64,000 nucleotides of DNA, taken from positions 1-64,000 of the forward strand of contig JACPQC010000034.1 in the NCBI GenBank assembly GCA_016190695.1. The letters run 5' to 3'. The stretch's first letter is position 1. Each line of letters opens with the position of its first letter. Below, piece after piece: positions 85 through 41,614 of this stretch. The stretch comes from Chloroflexota bacterium. GTDB lineage: Bacteria > Chloroflexota > Dehalococcoidia > Dehalococcoidales > RBG-16-60-22. Made by a program: the position numbers and the translations under genes. The notes under the pieces were generated by a model. That model had not been told where the DNA came from, searched no databases, and saw nothing but the letters and a program-made list of their open reading frames with translations.

Positions 85-399
85 TCAGCAAGGGTTCGCT
101 GTTCCGCCAGCCGCAGATGCGATGTTTATGGGACGGGCTCTGTCAAGGTTGTATTTCTTATAAAGTGCACAGGTCATGCAAATACAGCCTTTCTCCTCGT
201 CTATGCACTTGCTTTTATCAAACGCACAATACATTGCTTCCATGTGCTCCTTCTTACCGATGTCACTCATCATGTCAACCATTAGCCCCGGCATATTCTT
301 CATTTTGCACATGAACGTATAGGTTGGGCATTTCATGCACTGGCACAGTTTCAAATTCTCCTTTGTTTTAGCTACCTTTGTTGTCGCTACCTGGCTCAT
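85..399 (-). CDS. Cys-rich DUF2769-like protein
   Basis: ORF with conserved Cys pattern (CQCMKCPTY...CKMKNMPG...CAFDKSKC...CICMTC); internal Met (MSQVATTK) taken as start because an AGGAGG-like RBS precedes it. Confidence 0.6.
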   Translation of the reverse strand: MSQVATTKVAKTKENLKLCQCMKCPTYTFMCKMKNMPGLMVDMMSDIGKKEHMEAMYCAFDKSKCIDEEKGCICMTCALYKKYNLDRARPINIASAAGGTANPC

Positions 400-486
400 T
401 GTAATCCTCCTTCTTTCATATAATGGACCATATTTTGGAGCTAATAATAGCCCATAGCACATATTTTAGCCTTGCCAGCCGTGTTG

Positions 487-987
487 CTACCTTAAGGGGC
501 TTGTCATGATATAATCATTGTCTCGCTTGCCTCCGTGACAACCATAACACATATCCACTTTGCCGCTGACGTCTATTTTGCCGTCAGGGGCGTACTTCAG
601 CCAGAACCAATCATTATGTTCGGGGTCATAACCCTTGACCTTGTACATCACGGTAATCGCGGCCAAGGTCTTATCCGGCATGTAGTTCTCTTTCACGACG
701 ATACTGCCATTCGGAATGCTGCCCTCTTTGCCATCGATAGCCGAAAACGCATTGTCAGTCACGTAAGTGGTGAGAAGAGCACCGTGAGGCTCGGTGCCGG
801 GATAAAGCGCCTGCTTGCCGGGCCACATCTTCCATTTGTGATAGTCATTCTGCTGTGTAATGTAGTTGTACAAAGAAGTGCCATCGGTTGCCGGTGTTGG
901 CGCGGCTGCCTTACAGCCCACTACTACCAGTGGAAGTACCAGGATAGCCATAAGCATTAAACCCTTGATACGTCCGACCTTTTTCAT
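487..987 (-). CDS. Cytochrome P460-like lipoprotein with one CxxCH heme motif
   Basis: Lipobox VVVGC, C-terminal MCYGCHGGKRDNDYIMT c-heme motif, P460-like core (Y...WPGK...HG...YVTDNA); start set at MKKVGRIKG. Confidence 0.65.
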   Translation of the reverse strand: MKKVGRIKGLMLMAILVLPLVVVGCKAAAPTPATDGTSLYNYITQQNDYHKWKMWPGKQALYPGTEPHGALLTTYVTDNAFSAIDGKEGSIPNGSIVVKENYMPDKTLAAITVMYKVKGYDPEHNDWFWLKYAPDGKIDVSGKVDMCYGCHGGKRDNDYIMTSPLR

Positions 988-5676: not shown

Positions 5677-6468
5677 ATGGTTGCTTTTCAACTTGGTCCA
5701 TTTACAATAGCCTATTACGGAATCATGATAACTTCCGGGGTTATTGCCGCAACCGTCGTGTCTTATCTTGAGACCAAGAGAAGGCACTACGACACTCGTC
5801 ATGTTTACAACCTTTTACTTGTTGTCCTGCCCTTGGGAGCCATCGGCGCCCGCCTCTACCACGTGATCGACCAGTGGTCTTTTTACAGCCAGCATCCGGC
5901 CATGATTTTTGGGGGAGCCGGGTTGGGTATCTTTGGCGCTATTGCCGGAGGCGCTAGCGGGCTGATTGTTTACACTAAATGGCAGAAGTTGAGCACTCTC
6001 CAGTGGCTCGATATTGTGGCTCCGGGTGTGATTCTGGCGCAGGCCATCGGCAGGTGGGGAAATTACTTCAACCAGGAGCTTTACGGCTACCCAACCAATC
6101 TTCCCTGGGGCATCTATATCGACCCGGCACACAGACTGTCCGGGTATGAAGGTTACTCCTATTTTCACCCTCTTTTCTTCTACGAGTTTTTGTGGAATTT
6201 GCTCGGTTTCGTTATGTTGCTCTTCACGGGACGGAAATGGCAGAAGCGCTTGCTAAACGGCGACATTTTCCTATTGTACATTATCTGGTACAGCGTGGGG
6301 CGCTTCTATCTTGAAGGACTCAAGCTTGATGTATGGACAGTCGGTGGTATCCCAATGGCACGCTGGATAGCGGGGATAGCGTTCATCGCTTCCACTACTA
6401 TAATGGTCTACCTGCACCGCTGGAAGCTTCGTCTAAGTAGCACAATGCAACCTGAGGACAAAGCCTGA
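5677..6468 (+). CDS. lgt: Prolipoprotein diacylglyceryl transferase
   Basis: Lgt signature GRWGNYFNQELYG and membrane topology. Confidence 0.93.
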   Translation: MVAFQLGPFTIAYYGIMITSGVIAATVVSYLETKRRHYDTRHVYNLLLVVLPLGAIGARLYHVIDQWSFYSQHPAMIFGGAGLGIFGAIAGGASGLIVYTKWQKLSTLQWLDIVAPGVILAQAIGRWGNYFNQELYGYPTNLPWGIYIDPAHRLSGYEGYSYFHPLFFYEFLWNLLGFVMLLFTGRKWQKRLLNGDIFLLYIIWYSVGRFYLEGLKLDVWTVGGIPMARWIAGIAFIASTTIMVYLHRWKLRLSSTMQPEDKA

Positions 6469-6471
6469 ATC

Positions 6472-8919
6472 CTAGCTGTGACCATGGCCGGCTATCGTAT
6501 GTCCTACCCGGATGATGGCATTCTGAATATCCTGCTCTACCGTGCCTCCGTCGCGGAATGTCACCTCCACGAGCTTTTCGGCAAGGTTCACTTTCACGTT
6601 TTGCACACGGCTCAGCTTTCTCAACGCGTTTTCTATCGTTTCCGCGCAGCCTTCGCAATGGATGCTGGGGACTTCAAGGGTGAGCACATGCTCCTCCCGT
6701 GCCTTCTGGAAGTGGGGAAGATGGATAATCCGGCCGCCGAAGGAGTTCAGCAGCACCGTGGTCACACTGGCGGCCATGGCAATCATCGCCCATACCGGGT
6801 GGACCAGCCCCGTGACTGCCGCCGGAACGCCGATGCCATTGAAAGTGAATGCCAGGGAGACATTCTGCACCGTTTTGGTATAGCTGTTCGTACCGATGCG
6901 GTAGGCTTCCATGACGCCCGCCAAGTTTTGCCCGATGAGGATGACATCCGCCGATTCGATGGCGATATCGGTGCCGGTGCCGACGGCAATGCCGACATCC
7001 GCCTGCATCAGGGCCGGGGCGTCGTTGATGCCATCGCCTACCATTGCCACGCGGTAGCCCTGCCTTTGGAGCTTGCGCACCTCTTCAGCCTTATCGCCGG
7101 GGAGCACCTCCGCCAGCACCTTTTCTATACCTACCAGCCCGGCGACTGCCCGGGCCGTCCGCCAGTTATCGCCGGTAATCATGACAGGCTCAAGCCCGGC
7201 CTTTCTCATGCTCTCCACCGCCTCCCGCGTGTCTTCCTTGATGGTATCGCTGATGGCAATGACTCCCGCCGGCCTGCCATCGATGGCCGCCAGGACCACG
7301 GTTTTTCCTTCCTCCTCAAGTCTGGCCCTGTCCTTGTCCAAAGCGGACACGTCAATGCCCTGCTCCGCCAGGAAGCGGCCGGTGCCGACTACTACCCTTT
7401 TGCTATCAACGCTGGCAGAAACGCCTTTGCCGGGATAAGTCTGAAAGTCGGTTGCTTTCCCCGGCACCCCGCCCCTGGCAGTGACATAGTCTACAATTGC
7501 TCGTGCCAGCGCATGCTCGGAGAGTGTTTCGGTGGAGGCAACCAGCCCCAAGAATTCGCTCCGGTCAATCCCATCCATCAGCCCAATGTCGGATACGGAA
7601 GGCTCGCCCTGGGTGATTGTTCCGGTCTTGTCCAGAACTATCCTGCGCACATCTTTGAAGACCTGGAAGGCTTCGCCGGAGCGCATCAGGATACCTTTCT
7701 CAGCGGCGATGCCGCCGCCCCGTATCATCGCTAGCGGTGAAGCCATGCCGAGGGCGCAGGGGTAGCCCATCACCAGGGCAGCCAGCGCGGCGAAGACGGC
7801 TCGATTAAAATCAGGGCTGCCGGTAATTATCCATGCCCCGAGCGTCCAGATGAGGAAGGCGATACCGGCGGCGATGAGCACGCCGGGCACAAAATACTTC
7901 AGCACCCGGTCGACAAGAATGAGGATACCGGGCTTGAGGGCGCGGGCTTCCTGGATGCTCTGGGCTACCTTTTGCAGGAAGCTCTCATCGCCCACTCGGG
8001 TTACCCTTATCACTAGAGCTCCCGTCTGGTTGACCGAGCCGCCGATGACCTCATCGCCCTTCACCTTCTCAACCGGCATCGGCTCGCCGGTCACCAGCCT
8101 CTGGTCGATGCTGCTATAGCCGTCCTCGATGATGCCATCCACCGGGATGGACTCGCCCGGGCGCACACGCACCAGGTCTCCCTGCTTCACCTGACCAGTA
8201 GGGACATCCTCTTCCCGGCCATCGCGGATGACGCGGGCCGTCGCCGGCTGCAGCGCCATGAGCCGCTTTATTGCCTGGGAGCTGCGGGTGCGCGCCAGGA
8301 GCGAGATATAACCTGAGAGCAGGTGGTATGCCGTGACAAAGGTGGCCACACCAAAGAAATCGGGAATGGGAAATTCCTTTACGAAGAATCCGATGAAGCC
8401 GCCGGTAAGTCCGGCGAAGGCGGCGAACTCCAGCAGGACGTGCTGGTTAAGAATACCCCTCTTGAGTGATGACCAGGCCATCCTCTTGATGTGCCAGGCT
8501 GGTCCGAACATGGTCGCCAGCGCCAGTGCCAGCATGGGCCAGCGGAACCAGGGCTGCATAACGCCGAGCCACATCAGAACCATGAAAATCACTACAATGC
8601 CAGCGGCGCCCGCACCCACCAGGAATTTCCTCCTGGCAACGCCAAGCTCGGCCTCTTCTTCCTCGAACGACCTCACCTTCTCCGGGTCACGCCAGGTATA
8701 ACCCATGGCCACCAGGGTATCTTTAATCTGCTGGGGAGTAGCCCGTGCCGGATCATACCAGACCAGCGCCTCTTCGTGGGCGAGGCTGATGCTGGCCTCC
8801 TGCACGCCATCCAGACCCAGAAAAGCCTTCCGCAGTGTCTCAATGCAGAAGGAGCACTGCATGCCTCCGATCTTGACCTGGAGCTTTTTTAGGTTGTCAG
8901 CAGACATAGTTGTGTTCAT
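6472..8919 (-). CDS. P1B-type heavy-metal-translocating ATPase with N- and C-terminal HMA domains
   Basis: DKTGT, TGE, GDGIND motifs; N-terminal GGMQCSFC and C-terminal SIHCEGC HMA motifs; transmembrane motif MGYPCALG. Confidence 0.92.
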
Positions 8920-8943
8920 ATTTCGTACCCTTATCACACGTCC

Positions 8944-9486
8944 TTACCTCTGTCCGCCGGGCCAGGTCAGCACCGGCATGTTTACTACCGCTCCCCGTGG
9001 CTGCACTGACAGTTCTCCCCTGGACACGGTCTCGTTTATCTCGTCTATCGATCGTAGCTCACTGGGAGCTGCCCCTTCTTTCCAGCTAGTGAGCCTGACG
9101 GAGCGCAGGGGGCTGTACCCTTCATCGCCTGGCACCGAGTCGAAAATGTCCGCCTGGAATCCAAATGGACCATCACCCTTGATGCCGTTGGTGAAGACAT
9201 AAACGTTGGTCAGCACGGACTCAGGAACCTGGGCTAGGGCGGGAACGAATAACACCTTTGGCCCCATCATCTTGGTCAGCATATCGGCGACCTGGGCGTC
9301 TGAAGCTTCGGTGTGGATGAAGTAGATTACCTCTCCTTTGTAAAAACCGCGTACAGGTGGGACAAGGTCGTCCGAACTTACCGGCGCCGGTTGCATTTCT
9401 TCAGGCATGGCAGGAGCACAGGCGCTGAAAGTGAACAACAAGGCCACTCCAAACATAATTGAGAGGGCAATTACCTTTACTTTCAT
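8944..9486 (-). CDS. Lipoprotein of unknown function in metal-resistance operon
   Basis: 180 aa; lipobox TFSAC; co-directional with flanking metal-resistance genes. Confidence 0.6.
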   Translation of the reverse strand: MKVKVIALSIMFGVALLFTFSACAPAMPEEMQPAPVSSDDLVPPVRGFYKGEVIYFIHTEASDAQVADMLTKMMGPKVLFVPALAQVPESVLTNVYVFTNGIKGDGPFGFQADIFDSVPGDEGYSPLRSVRLTSWKEGAAPSELRSIDEINETVSRGELSVQPRGAVVNMPVLTWPGGQR

Positions 9487-9561: not shown

Positions 9562-10080
9562 TCAATGGCTATCATCCCAGTTATTCTTTATGCCAGTCTC
9601 ACGGGCTTTCGCCACTTGAGAAACTGCGCAGCCACTGCCGTAGATAGTCCTCACCCGCAGGTGCAGCGACCATGCCAGCAAGCCCAGAGAGGCGATGCCG
9701 ATGTAAATCTGCAGCGGAGCGAAGAAAGTGAGCGCCCCGGAAGCGCCAAGAAGCAGCAAGACAAGTTTGTTGCACACCGGGCAACCGACTGCCAGAAAGG
9801 AAAGGAGCCCTCCGGATGCGGCTCTGCCGCCAGCGACATTTCTCGCCGGGAGGGTAAACGTTCCGGCAACGAAACCCGCCAGAACTCCGGTCAGCGCCCA
9901 GATGATGTAATCCTGCGTTCGAGTTGGCGTCATGCGCAGGAAAAACGGATTATCGATGATCGCGCTGGTTACGCCGATCACTACCCAAGTGACGGCGGCG
10001 CCGGCGGCGGCGGCGACCATCCAGCCACGCAGGCCAAAAAGCTGGAAAACGGACCCCCATCTCGTCAGCAAGGTTTTCAT
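9562..10080 (-). CDS. Membrane protein with CPxC motif, candidate metal/thiol transporter
   Basis: 172 aa, several TM helices, VGCPVCNKLVLLLLGASGALTF and C-terminal Cys (YGSGCAVSQ); next to merA. Confidence 0.5.
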   Translation of the reverse strand: MKTLLTRWGSVFQLFGLRGWMVAAAAGAAVTWVVIGVTSAIIDNPFFLRMTPTRTQDYIIWALTGVLAGFVAGTFTLPARNVAGGRAASGGLLSFLAVGCPVCNKLVLLLLGASGALTFFAPLQIYIGIASLGLLAWSLHLRVRTIYGSGCAVSQVAKARETGIKNNWDDSH

Positions 10081-10129: not shown

Positions 10130-11527
10130 CTATTCCACGCAACAGCTCATCTTGCTGATATCCCTGGTGAATGACTGCGCCACGCGCTTGATGCCTTCGC
10201 TGAAGGAGGGAAAGACGTGAACCGTGTCGATGATGTCATCGATAGTCAGGCTGTGCTTTACAGCAAGGGTCGCCTCGTGAATCAAGTCCGCCGCGCCCGG
10301 CGCCACGATGTGGACACCGAGTACCTTGAAGTTCCGGGGGTGGATAACCATCTTGAAAGCTCCCCTGGTCTCGTTCACGGCTGAGGCTCTCGGCACCATA
10401 GCCATATCGATGGTGCGGCAAAGGCAGGTATTGAAGCGGCGCATCTCCTCTTCCTCGGTAATGCCCACCGAAGCCACTTGCGGATTGGTGAAAACGGCCG
10501 ACGGCACGTGGTCATAGTTGATGCTGCGCACAGGCACGGTGAAGGCGTTCTCGACAGCCAGCGCCCCTTCTTTGGCGGCAACCGGCTCCAGCGCCATTTT
10601 GCCGATGCAATCGCCCGCGGCAAAGACATCAGGGTTATCGGTTTGATAATACTGGTTGACCTCGATAAAACCATTTTTGTTTGCCTTGATGCCGGCTGCG
10701 CTCAAGTTGAGTTCCGATGTATTCGGCTGGATGCCGGCGGCAAGTAGGACCTCTTCCGTCTCTATTTCTTCCAGTCCGTCTCCCTTCCTGAAAGTCACTA
10801 TTTTCCTGTTTTCTCGCTCGGACACTTTCTCAACACGAACGCCGGTGTGGATGGCAATGCCCTCATCTTCCAGGCATCGCTGCAGCTCGGCAGCAATGTC
10901 GGGTTCGTGCTTGGGCAGAATCTGCGACATGGCTTCGAGCACGGTGACTTGAATACCGAAATGAGCGAACATCTGAGCAAACTCCATGCCCAGTGGTCCA
11001 CCACCGATAACAACCATGGACTTCGGCAGCGTGCGGAGTTTCAGGGCGGTTACATTACTCAGCCACTGCACTCTGTCCAATCCTGGTATGGGCAGCACCT
11101 TCGTGCTTGAGCCAGTGGCGATTAGGACCTTATCAGCTTCATAGATTTTACCACCCACTTCAACCCTGTTCCGGCCGGTAAATCGTGCCATCCCTTCGAC
11201 CAGAGTGACATCTTCCAGGCTTTCCAGGACGTTAACGTAGTTCTGCTGACGGACGCGGGCTATCATCTGGTTCACCTCCCGCATGGCCGTTCCAAAAGCA
11301 ACTTTAGACCGGGTTTGTAGAGCTTTGAACCTCGGCCTTTGAGAGTAAAAGAATTCGTCACCCACGGTAAGCAGATGCTTGCTCGGCATGCAGCCGACAT
11401 TCATACAGGTGCCGCCGATGGGAAGTCCGCCGTTAATCATTAGTGCTGTTTTCCCTAGGTCTGAGGCTTTGGTGGCCGCGGCAAAAGCCGCCGAGCCGCC
11501 ACCGATGATGATAAGGTCGTATTTCAT
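10130..11527 (-). CDS. merA: Mercuric reductase (MerA-like pyridine nucleotide-disulfide oxidoreductase)
   Basis: [13 protein letters not shown] redox motif, FAD/NAD motifs, C-terminal vicinal cysteines MSCCVE. Confidence 0.88.
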
Positions 11528-11546: not shown

Positions 11547-11870
11547 TCATTCAGTCGGTTCGAGAACCTTATCTCCGTTCTTCTCGATTGCCGCCTTGAT
11601 AGCAGCGATACTGGTTACATCCGGGTCGTAGGTTATAACCACCCTCTGTATTCTCTCCTTATCGAACTTAACGTCAACCACCCCAGTCACCTTCCTGGCA
11701 CTGGCCTCGACCCGAGACCAACAGCCTGTTCAGACTATTGTGGGTATCTCCAGCGTTAAATTGTCCAGACGGCCAGAGTACTGGGAGCTATCGAATTGAG
11801 TGGCGGTGCGTTGGCTACAAGCCAAAAAAGACGTGAGAATAGTGATAGCCAAAACTAGGCGTGCTTTCAC
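11547..11870 (-). CDS. HMA/MerP-like lipoprotein; in-frame TGA (11732-11730) read as Sec, giving a UxxC metal-binding motif
   Basis: GTG start overlapping arsR stop (GTGA). Reading: [20 protein letters not shown]...[70 protein letters not shown]. Lipobox FLAC; the part after TGA is a typical HMA fold. Confidence 0.82.
11695..11732 (-). promoter_or_regulatory. Candidate bacterial SECIS element for the HMA/MerP-like gene
   Basis: RNA sense: UGA-ACAGGCUGUU-GGUCUC-GGGUC-GAGGCC; 6-bp stem (extendable), loop GGGUC starting with G, 16 nt between UGA and loop. Confidence 0.6.
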
Positions 11871-12235
11871 TGTGGCTCTCCCGGTTCGGGTTCCTGGACC
11901 ACGTCCACCCTTGTGCATGCCCATATTCGTTCAGCGTTCCTGGCTATCATCTGCTGGGAGACTTCCAACAATTGCCGCACCTGTCCATCAGCCAGCCGGT
12001 AATAGATATATTTGCCGTCACGTCTCGTATCCACGAAGCCGCACTGTTTTAGACAGGCCAAGTGGTTGGATACCCTGCCTTGGCTTGAGCCGACCACCTC
12101 GACCAGTTCCCCTACATTCTTTTCTCCATCGAGAAGAGCATCCAGGATTTTGAGTCGACTCAGCTCCCCAAGGGCCCGAAAAAATTTACTCCCCAGCGCC
12201 AGCTTCTCGATGTTTTGCTTCGTAACAGTCGCCAC
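11867..12235 (-). CDS. ArsR/SmtB-family metal-sensing repressor (CmtR-like Cys pattern)
   Basis: Winged-helix ArsR pattern (LSRLKILDALLDGEKNVGELVEVVGSSQGRVSNHLACLKQCGFVDTRRDGKYIYYRL) with CLKQC and C-terminal CTR. Confidence 0.88.
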   Translation of the reverse strand: MATVTKQNIEKLALGSKFFRALGELSRLKILDALLDGEKNVGELVEVVGSSQGRVSNHLACLKQCGFVDTRRDGKYIYYRLADGQVRQLLEVSQQMIARNAERIWACTRVDVVQEPEPGEPQ

Positions 12236-12270: not shown

Positions 12271-12553
12271 TAATAGGCCACCACCGGGCGTTTGTCAACG
12301 AGGTGTAGCTCCACGTCAGATCTCAGCTTATTCATGGAAACGGATTTGCATAAAATTTGAAGCTGTTCTCTCCCCGGAGGGGGAGCGATAAACGAGCTAT
12401 TATGCAGGCAATAATCAAGGGTAGAAATGCTGATGTTCCGTGTCTTTAGCAACTTTTATTGCAAACAAAATGAGACTGCCGAAAAAGTCCAAAGACGTGA
12501 TATGAGGCTAAATGCATGATAGAATACAGATAACAATCGCAAAGGAGGTGCTC

Positions 12554-13612
12554 ATGCTCAAGCCAAAATCACCTCAAGAATCGTTCTTCGGCAGTTATCT
12601 GTATGACCGTATCGTCCCAGTCGACCACCTGCTTCGCCAGGTAAACCAGGTGGTCGATTTTTCTTTTGCAGGGCAGATACTTAAGGACAGGTATAATCCC
12701 AGTATCGGGAGGCCGGCGGAAGACCCGGAGTTCATGCTCAGGCTTTACCTGTTGCAGTACATCTACGGCGATTCCGATAGAAATGTGATTGAAAATGCCC
12801 GGCTGAATCTGGCCTACAAGTACTTTCTGGGTCTTGCAGTCGATGCTGAGATTCCGGATTACACCACCATATCTTATTTCCGGGCCCAAAGGTTAGGGGA
12901 AGAGAAATTCCGGGCGGTCTTAGACCAGATCGTCCGGCAATGCATCGATAAGGGACTGGTAAAGGGTAACCGGCAGATAATCGATTCGACGCCCATCAGG
13001 GCGAATATCACCGTAAGCAGCATTACCGGGTTGGTCAGGAAGTGCCGGGAGAATGTGTTGAAGACTATCGCCAAGCAGGATGCGAGGGTAGCGAAAAGGC
13101 TGGGACTGAAAGATCTTGAAAACGCCGAGTCGGTCAAGTTTGCTTCCACCCAAGAAGGGCTGCAGCAAGAAGTCGAAGCTGCTGGTGAATTACTTGATAG
13201 CGTTACCGCAGAGTTCAAAACCAAAAAGATCAGGCCGACCGAGGAACTTCAAAAAGACTTGGGATTACTGGAGAAGGCGGTTGCGGACAGAGAAGAGGGT
13301 GCCAAAGATAAGCTTCTCAGCCCGGTGGACCCTGATGCGAGACATGGGAAGAAGACAAGCACAACCTGGCCGGGTTACAGGGCACATATCATTATTGAGG
13401 AAGAGACAGGTATCATCACCGGAGTAGGAACCACCCCGGCCAATGCTACCGATGGCAGCCAGCTCAAGCCGATGCTCAAGGAGCAGGAAAAAGTCCATTC
13501 TCTTATACCGCAAGAACTCACCGCAGATAGAGCTTATGACTGGGGAGATAACCTGGAATCACTGGCTTTTAATAACACCTTTGCCAATATCGCTCTAACC
13601 AAGCAGGTAAAC
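12554..13612 (+). mobile_element. IS1182-like transposase, 3'-truncated
   Basis: DUF772-type N-terminus (VPVDHLLRQVNQVVDFSF...YNPSIGRPAEDPEFMLRLYLLQYIYGDSDRNVIENARLNLAYKYFLGL) and DDE-like core; homology stops where UbiD sequence begins near 13612. Confidence 0.8.
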
Positions 13613-14693
13613 CCCCGAAGCGCCGGTAAAGGAAGTGATAATTACCGGGAAAGACATAGACCTGGGACTGTTGCCCATCACACATCATGCCGAGCTAAAC
13701 TCCGGCAAATACATATCCATAGGCTGCATGGTCAGCAAACACCCTGACACCGGTATCCCTAACGTGGGGGTGTACCGCCACGAGGTCAAGGGCAAAGACA
13801 AGCTGGGCTGCATGGTAAACCCGGCCAATCACGGAGCCTACATCGCCCGGCGCAGCGCCGAACTGGGCAAGACCATGGAAGTAGCCATCTTTATCGGCCA
13901 TCACCCGGCGGTGGTGCTCGGCGCTATGACCAGGGGCGACATCAACCTCAACGAGCTTGAGATAATGGGCGGCCTGCTCGGAGAGCCCCTGGAGGTGGTC
14001 AGAGGAGAGACAGTAGACCTGCCCGTACCGGCACATGCCGAAGTAGTTATCGAGGGGGTAATCGACCCGCGTAATATGGTCACCGACGGCCCGTTTGCCG
14101 AATACCTCGGCTACTACGGCGAGGGGAACAAGCCCTGCTATCTCATCGATGTGACCGCCATAACCATGCGCCGCGACGCCATCTACCATGACCTCGACCC
14201 GGCCCACCGCGAGCACGTCCTCTCCTGCGTGCTGGGACTGGAGTCCGGCGCTTACGATGCGGTGAAGCGGGTGGTGCCAACCGTGCAGGCGGTGCACATC
14301 TTTCCCAGCGCCAGCAGTTTCGTATTCGCCGGCGTCTGCATTCGGAAACGCGTTCCGGGAGAGGGCGTTCTCGCTGGCATGATGGCCATTGGCGACCCGG
14401 CCATAAAGGGGGCGCTGGTCGTCGATGAGGACATCGATATCTTCAACGAGCAGGAGGCGCTGTGGGCCGCCGGCACCAGGGTGGTGGCAGACCAGGACAT
14501 CCACACCATGCCCCGCATACTGGGAGCGCATCTTGACCCCACCACCTACGATGAGACACGCCTGAAAAGAGGCCCAATGCTGACCAAAGTGGTGATCGAT
14601 GCCACCAAACCTGTCGGCCTGCCCTTCTCAACACGGATCACTCCTCCCAAAGACCTGTGGGAGTCAATGAAGCTGGCTGACTACGTAAAGTAA
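13612..14693 (+). pseudogene. UbiD-family decarboxylase, N-terminally truncated at the IS junction
   Basis: Reading from about 13612: APVKEVIITGKDIDLGLLPITHHAELNSGKYISIG...DGPFAEYLGYYGEGNKPCYLID; the N-terminal part expected for UbiD is missing; longest start-to-stop ORF begins with GTG 13635. Confidence 0.75.
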
Positions 14694-41513: not shown

Positions 41514-41562
41514 CATATGTTTAAGGCTATCGACCATTCGGCGGTAAGCCTCTAGTTGTTTG

Positions 41563-41614
41563 GTGTTGCCCTAAGATAGTCCGCTTGGATCAGGAATGAC
41601 CGAGACGGCAAGAC
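41563..41614 (+). ncRNA. Candidate pan RNA motif (pantothenate operon leader)
   Basis: Stem-loop CCGCTTGG(A)TCA-GGAA-TGACCGAG(A)CGG with two bulged adenosines, one per strand (41589, 41605), in the leader of a panD-panB-panC operon. Confidence 0.65.

Follow-up and report, generated by a model that had tools for sequence, protein, structure and literature searches.

We identified a gene in a Chloroflexota mercury resistance (mer) locus that appears to encode a selenocysteine (Sec)-containing, lipid-anchored acceptor of Hg(II). The gene lies between arsR and merA in a 64,000-nucleotide stretch of contig JACPQC010000034.1, hereafter the window. Its reading frame is interrupted only by a TGA at 11732-11730, and on the comparative evidence given below this UGA very probably encodes Sec. 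We hold with good confidence that the product is a MerP-like protein with the metal site Sec-Thr-Gly-Cys. The features of the locus are as follows.

5677-6468, plus strand: lgt, prolipoprotein diacylglyceryl transferase (PF01790, 214.6 bits)
6472-8937, minus strand: heavy-metal ATPase of the P1B type, with an HMA domain at each terminus (TIGR01525, 545 bits)
8944-9486, minus strand: DUF7482 protein (PF24298, 94 bits), also present within the mer locus of genome G158
9562-10080, minus strand: membrane protein containing GCPVCNKL, without a match in Pfam or NCBIfam
10130-11527, minus strand: merA, mercury(II) reductase with a C-terminal SCCVE (TIGR02053, 530.9 bits, cut-off 454.45)
11547-11870, minus strand: Sec-HMA lipoprotein gene (translation, Pfam HMA, AlphaFold HMA fold)
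11701-11721, minus strand: candidate bacterial SECIS hairpin, pairing over the four family members with a UTGC site, core GGUCUC-GGGUC-GAGGCC at 11719-11703
11721-11723, minus strand: TGT, codon of the second Cys, which is kept in the UTGC site (translation and alignment)
11730-11732, minus strand: in-frame UGA, predicted Sec codon, at the first-Cys column of the HMA CxxC (TGA in 8 genomes, Cys in 2)
11867-12235, minus strand: ArsR-family regulator (HTH_5, 54.5 bits)

The sequence-only reading of this DNA had described a minus-strand frame with a lipoprotein signal and an HMA domain broken only by the TGA, and both translation and the Pfam search confirmed it. The Pfam HMA domain (PF00403) spans the TGA, covering residues 39-98 at 38.9 bits against a cut-off of 24.8, and the metal site reads U47-T-G-C50, with the TGA and the second Cys codon (TGT, 11723-11721) where they had been placed. 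The gene starts with GTG at 11870-11868 and stops with TGA at 11549-11547. Its start overlaps the arsR stop TGA (11869-11867) as GTGA, an overlap that had also been noted correctly. The signal is of the lipoprotein type with the lipobox SFLAC, and a lipobox-like Cys was found by eye in eight of the nine readable N-termini of the family.

The AlphaFold model of the window protein showed a beta-alpha-beta-beta-alpha HMA domain over residues 31-100 (pLDDT ~89–96), preceded by a disordered N-terminus. MerP was the closest solved structure (1osd; target-normalised TM 0.90) and, as TIGR02052, also the top NCBIfam hit of the family members. The metal cannot be read from the fold, as profile matches of the family included not only MerP but also CopZ and the domains of copper ATPases.

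Exchange between Sec and Cys at one functional column is a classical mark of selenoproteins. Scanning genome contigs yielded a homologue in a groundwater Chloroflexi assembly (genome G101, locus L021) with 63% identity over the domain, which carries TGA at the same codon and likewise sits between arsR and merA. Eight further members came from profile searches of ~400 genomes in the class and ~400 in the phylum. In total, eight genomes including that of the window had TGA at the first-Cys column, the seven others all being Chloroflexota. The metal site was UTGC in the window, G101, G145, and G124, UPSC in G108, UVSC in G563, UPGC in G577, and UPGU, with two TGA codons, in G743. The two Cys members had CSGC (G158) and CSDC (G118). 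Cys or TGA at this column in homologues had been proposed as the sign of Sec, and the searches returned exactly these, with no residue other than U or C among the members from the ten genomes. A search of the class of G577 gave no new members, one of the order of G145 covered two genomes only, and tblastn against plasmids returned nothing beyond distant HMA proteins. The G743 member (L104:2306-2530, minus strand) may have a double-Sec metal site; its genome is 77% complete and SelB was undetected in it.

Between the four UTGC members, dN was 0.23–0.38 and dS was 0.7–2.5 over the 55 codons 3' of the TGA. As dN is well below dS downstream of the TGA, translation must continue beyond it.

The host bin comprises 1.34 Mb and is 70% complete. 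SelA, selB, and tRNA-Sec were not found in this bin: the covariance search for tRNA-Sec matched only Ser, Trp, Tyr, Thr, Arg, and Met tRNAs, and the SelB search gave only matches below the cut-off, which we took as other translation GTPases. In the host selD gene, however, the catalytic position (GAGUACK) is encoded by an in-frame TGA, and fdhA has another at its canonical Sec residue, within CARLUHSPTVAG. SelD and FdhA of the Sec type are textbook selenoproteins, and their presence indicates that the lineage decodes Sec. Searches of 19 other genomes from the taxonomic family of the host found SelA above the cut-off in 17. SelB adjoined selA in all five loci taken from relatives and in that of G101; tRNA-Sec was close by in two genomes, G005 and G101. 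With selA and selB forming one locus in relatives, a single assembly gap could take out the whole set. The sequence-only reading had named a host genome without selB and selC as a refutation of Sec; taken literally this applies to the bin, but the bin is incomplete. Among the eight TGA genomes, SelB was above the cut-off in six; G743, at the completeness given above, is also one without it. For the Cys-form genomes, G158 (93% complete) had no SelB above the cut-off and G118 had one.

The sequence-only reading had also pointed out a hairpin, GGUCUC-GGGUC-GAGGCC, with its loop 16 nt from the UGA, and this hairpin is present at 11719-11703, its core starting 10 nt 3' of the TGA. Across the four UTGC members, 31 of 32 cells were standard pairs (96.9%) and the GGGUC loop was kept. 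Compensatory change was seen at two pairs, one going from G-C to A-U and the other varying among C-G, U-A, and U-G, and sliding the partners destroyed the pairing. In a shuffle control the covariation score was reached by 61 of 500 shuffles, a result to be read with the alignment of only four sequences. The same helix was broken in both Cys members, and the loop of the G158 member differs.

The folding energy of the window hairpin alone was not separable from that of shuffles (z = −0.89); the weight of the hairpin comes from the comparison with homologues. When codons were reshuffled synonymously, sequences as stable or more stable made up 10%, 5%, 15%, and 1.4% of reshuffles for the four UTGC members, 6% for G577 and 0.7% for G743, whereas the two members with Cys gave 28% and 34%; the value for the window (10%) is only suggestive. 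No convincing hairpin was seen at the same place in the G108 and G563 members. The host fdhA has a GGUCU-loop hairpin after its own UGA, which makes a GGUC-type loop plausible in this lineage.

Other readings of the UGA fared poorly against these observations. A nonsense mutation leaving a pseudogene, or a miscalled Cys codon, would fit a single assembly whose bin lacks selA, selB, and selC, but seven further assemblies, all independent, have TGA at exactly this column and purifying selection acts 3' of it; we rejected this explanation as extremely improbable and refuted in practice. Reading of UGA as an ordinary amino acid through code reassignment, or plain readthrough, found no support in the data and is also highly improbable. 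TGA ends 14 of the 39 long non-overlapping open reading frames of the window, arsR and the Sec-HMA gene both stop with it, and the host has Sec-type SelD and FdhA. Reassignment was therefore rejected, TGA being a normal stop in the window. The UGA could instead serve mainly as a selenium-dependent switch, giving a short lipopeptide without selenium and the full metal-binding protein with it. The signal and linker precede the UGA, so that a truncated product would indeed be a lipopeptide without the metal site, but the presence of Cys in its place in two genomes suggests that the residue itself matters, rather than regulation, and we consider a switch very unlikely. Sec at the metal site, as originally proposed, is supported by the U/C exchange among homologues, the Sec-type SelD and FdhA of the host, and SelB in most of the TGA genomes.

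The gene neighbourhood of the family is of the mer type. In the window, MerA lacks an N-terminal HMA domain, and lgt is convergent to the mer cluster. Lgt recurs beside homologous mer loci (L021:6814-7587, L065:4605-5375, and L069:6090-6878), which fits a linked lipoprotein anchor. The gene order was arsR, Sec-HMA, a CopZ-type protein, lgt, and merA in L021; arsR, Sec-HMA, a MerT-like gene, merA, and lgt in G145; merA, a MerT-like gene, lgt, and Sec-HMA in G108; and Sec-HMA, a MerT/MerC-like gene, and merA in G563. In both G124 and G158 it was merA, the HMA lipoprotein, a GCP(V/I)CNKL protein, a second HMA protein, and an ATPase. The GCPVCNKL-type membrane protein, which thus accompanies merA and the HMA lipoprotein in these two genomes as in the window, is a possible transporter partner. 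Overall, most of the ten loci had merA adjoining or near, and several had MerT-like genes.

Several further features were observed in and around these loci. The CopZ-type Fe-S metallochaperone of L021 (6243-6734, plus strand; NF047645, 128.7 bits) has an in-frame TGA giving NCU and is a second probable selenoprotein. The MerT/MerC-like membrane protein beside the G563 Sec-HMA gene (L102, ~350-660, plus strand) has an in-frame TGA (SSICULG) where MerT carries its Cys pair. The P1B-type ATPase of the window (6472-8937, minus strand) has YPCALG in place of the usual CPC/CPx motif. A transposase gene (DUF772, DDE; 12512-13747, plus strand) lies directly upstream of arsR, and the mer cluster may be mobile. 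Elsewhere in the window, an Rfam pan motif was found at 41525-41612 on the plus strand (41.6 bits, gathering score 36.2).

A mercury function of the Sec-HMA lipoprotein is likely. In the proposed mechanism, the UGA at 11732-11730 would be read as Sec with the aid of the hairpin just 3' of it, and the lipoprotein signal would hold the HMA domain on the outside of the cytoplasmic membrane, an anchoring that would be fitting for cells that lack an outer membrane. Hg(II) or a similar soft metal may be captured there by the Se/S pair. Captured Hg(II) would then pass to a membrane transporter and on to cytosolic MerA, which would reduce it to Hg(0).

Alternatively, Sec may be inserted as proposed, but into a protein whose task is the handling of copper or a different soft metal, or thiol/selenol redox, and not Hg(II) capture. 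The matches to CopZ and copper-ATPase HMA domains would agree with such a role, as would the ATPase with two HMA domains in the same cluster and a gene resembling a CcdA/DsbD-type membrane protein (by eye) that adjoins the G577 and G743 members. It is, however, at odds with the recurrence of merA and MerT-like genes around the family and with MerP being both the closest solved structure and the best NCBIfam match, and we regard it as unlikely. Returning to the mercury reading, the Chloroflexota loci may represent 'selenium-armed' mer operons, with Sec in the HMA acceptor, in a MerT/MerC-like transporter (ICULG, L102), and in a CopZ-type Fe-S chaperone (NCU, L021), and with a linked lgt anchoring the acceptor. 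We offer this broader picture tentatively and put it at somewhat less than an even chance.

The family shares features with several known systems. Like the periplasmic Hg(II)-binding protein MerP (TIGR02052), the window protein has an HMA fold, a CxxC-type metal site, and a mer-gene neighbourhood. However, it scored 36.1 bits against the TIGR02052 cut-off of 92.55, is a predicted lipoprotein whereas MerP is soluble in the periplasm, and has Sec in place of the first Cys. Unlike in the MerP setting, classical merT is not directly beside the Sec-HMA gene in the window. The guess in the sequence-only reading that Sec-containing metal-binding proteins might already be recorded in surveys was right. 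The Global Ocean Sampling survey of 2008 predicted a Sec-containing 'Mercuric transport protein MerP' from two sequences, with no motif given (PMC2398784); compared by description only, these marine metagenomic sequences differ in origin from the present members, which belong to Chloroflexota mer loci. A second source lists the UxxU metal-binding (seleno)protein NF041115 and a Sec-containing 'putative mercuric transport protein' (PMC13188914). NF041115 likewise comprises small proteins of the HMA type whose metal site contains Sec, but the window protein scored 22.8 bits against the NF041115 cut-off of 95, the NF041115 motif is UxxU, and two predicted Sec residues were present only in the G743 member (UPGU). 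Moreover, the NF041115 model has 74 positions, into which the lipoprotein signal would not fit. The MerT/CopZ fusion-like heavy metal transport selenoprotein NF045683 also combines Sec, an HMA part, and metal transport, but the window protein reached 20.9 bits against 375, and its HMA domain is a separate lipoprotein. A UxxC E1-E2 cation-transporting ATPase is listed among predicted selenoproteins (PMC13188914, PMC2398784); it has the UxxC pattern in common with the window protein, which is a stand-alone lipoprotein and not an ATPase.

Literature searches found nothing specific on Sec in Chloroflexota mer operons, and a search for a MerP lipoprotein or for lgt within such operons was equally negative. 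Predictions of Sec-MerP and of further Sec-HMA proteins already existed, and what is new is a Sec-HMA protein that is predicted to be lipid-anchored, is tied to merA and often to lgt across Chloroflexota, and occurs naturally in U/C and U/U forms.

Standard annotation cuts the Sec-HMA gene at its UGA or overlooks the gene altogether. Attack on selenoproteins is a common explanation for the toxicity of mercury, and selenolates have a higher affinity for Hg(II) than thiolates. The use of Sec as a mercury ligand in a detoxification operon, if true, would turn this liability into a tool. Natural U/C pairs within one fold and one operon context make the effect of replacing sulfur with selenium on Hg capture and hand-over directly testable, and with this family the mer system gains a predicted lipid-anchored MerP.
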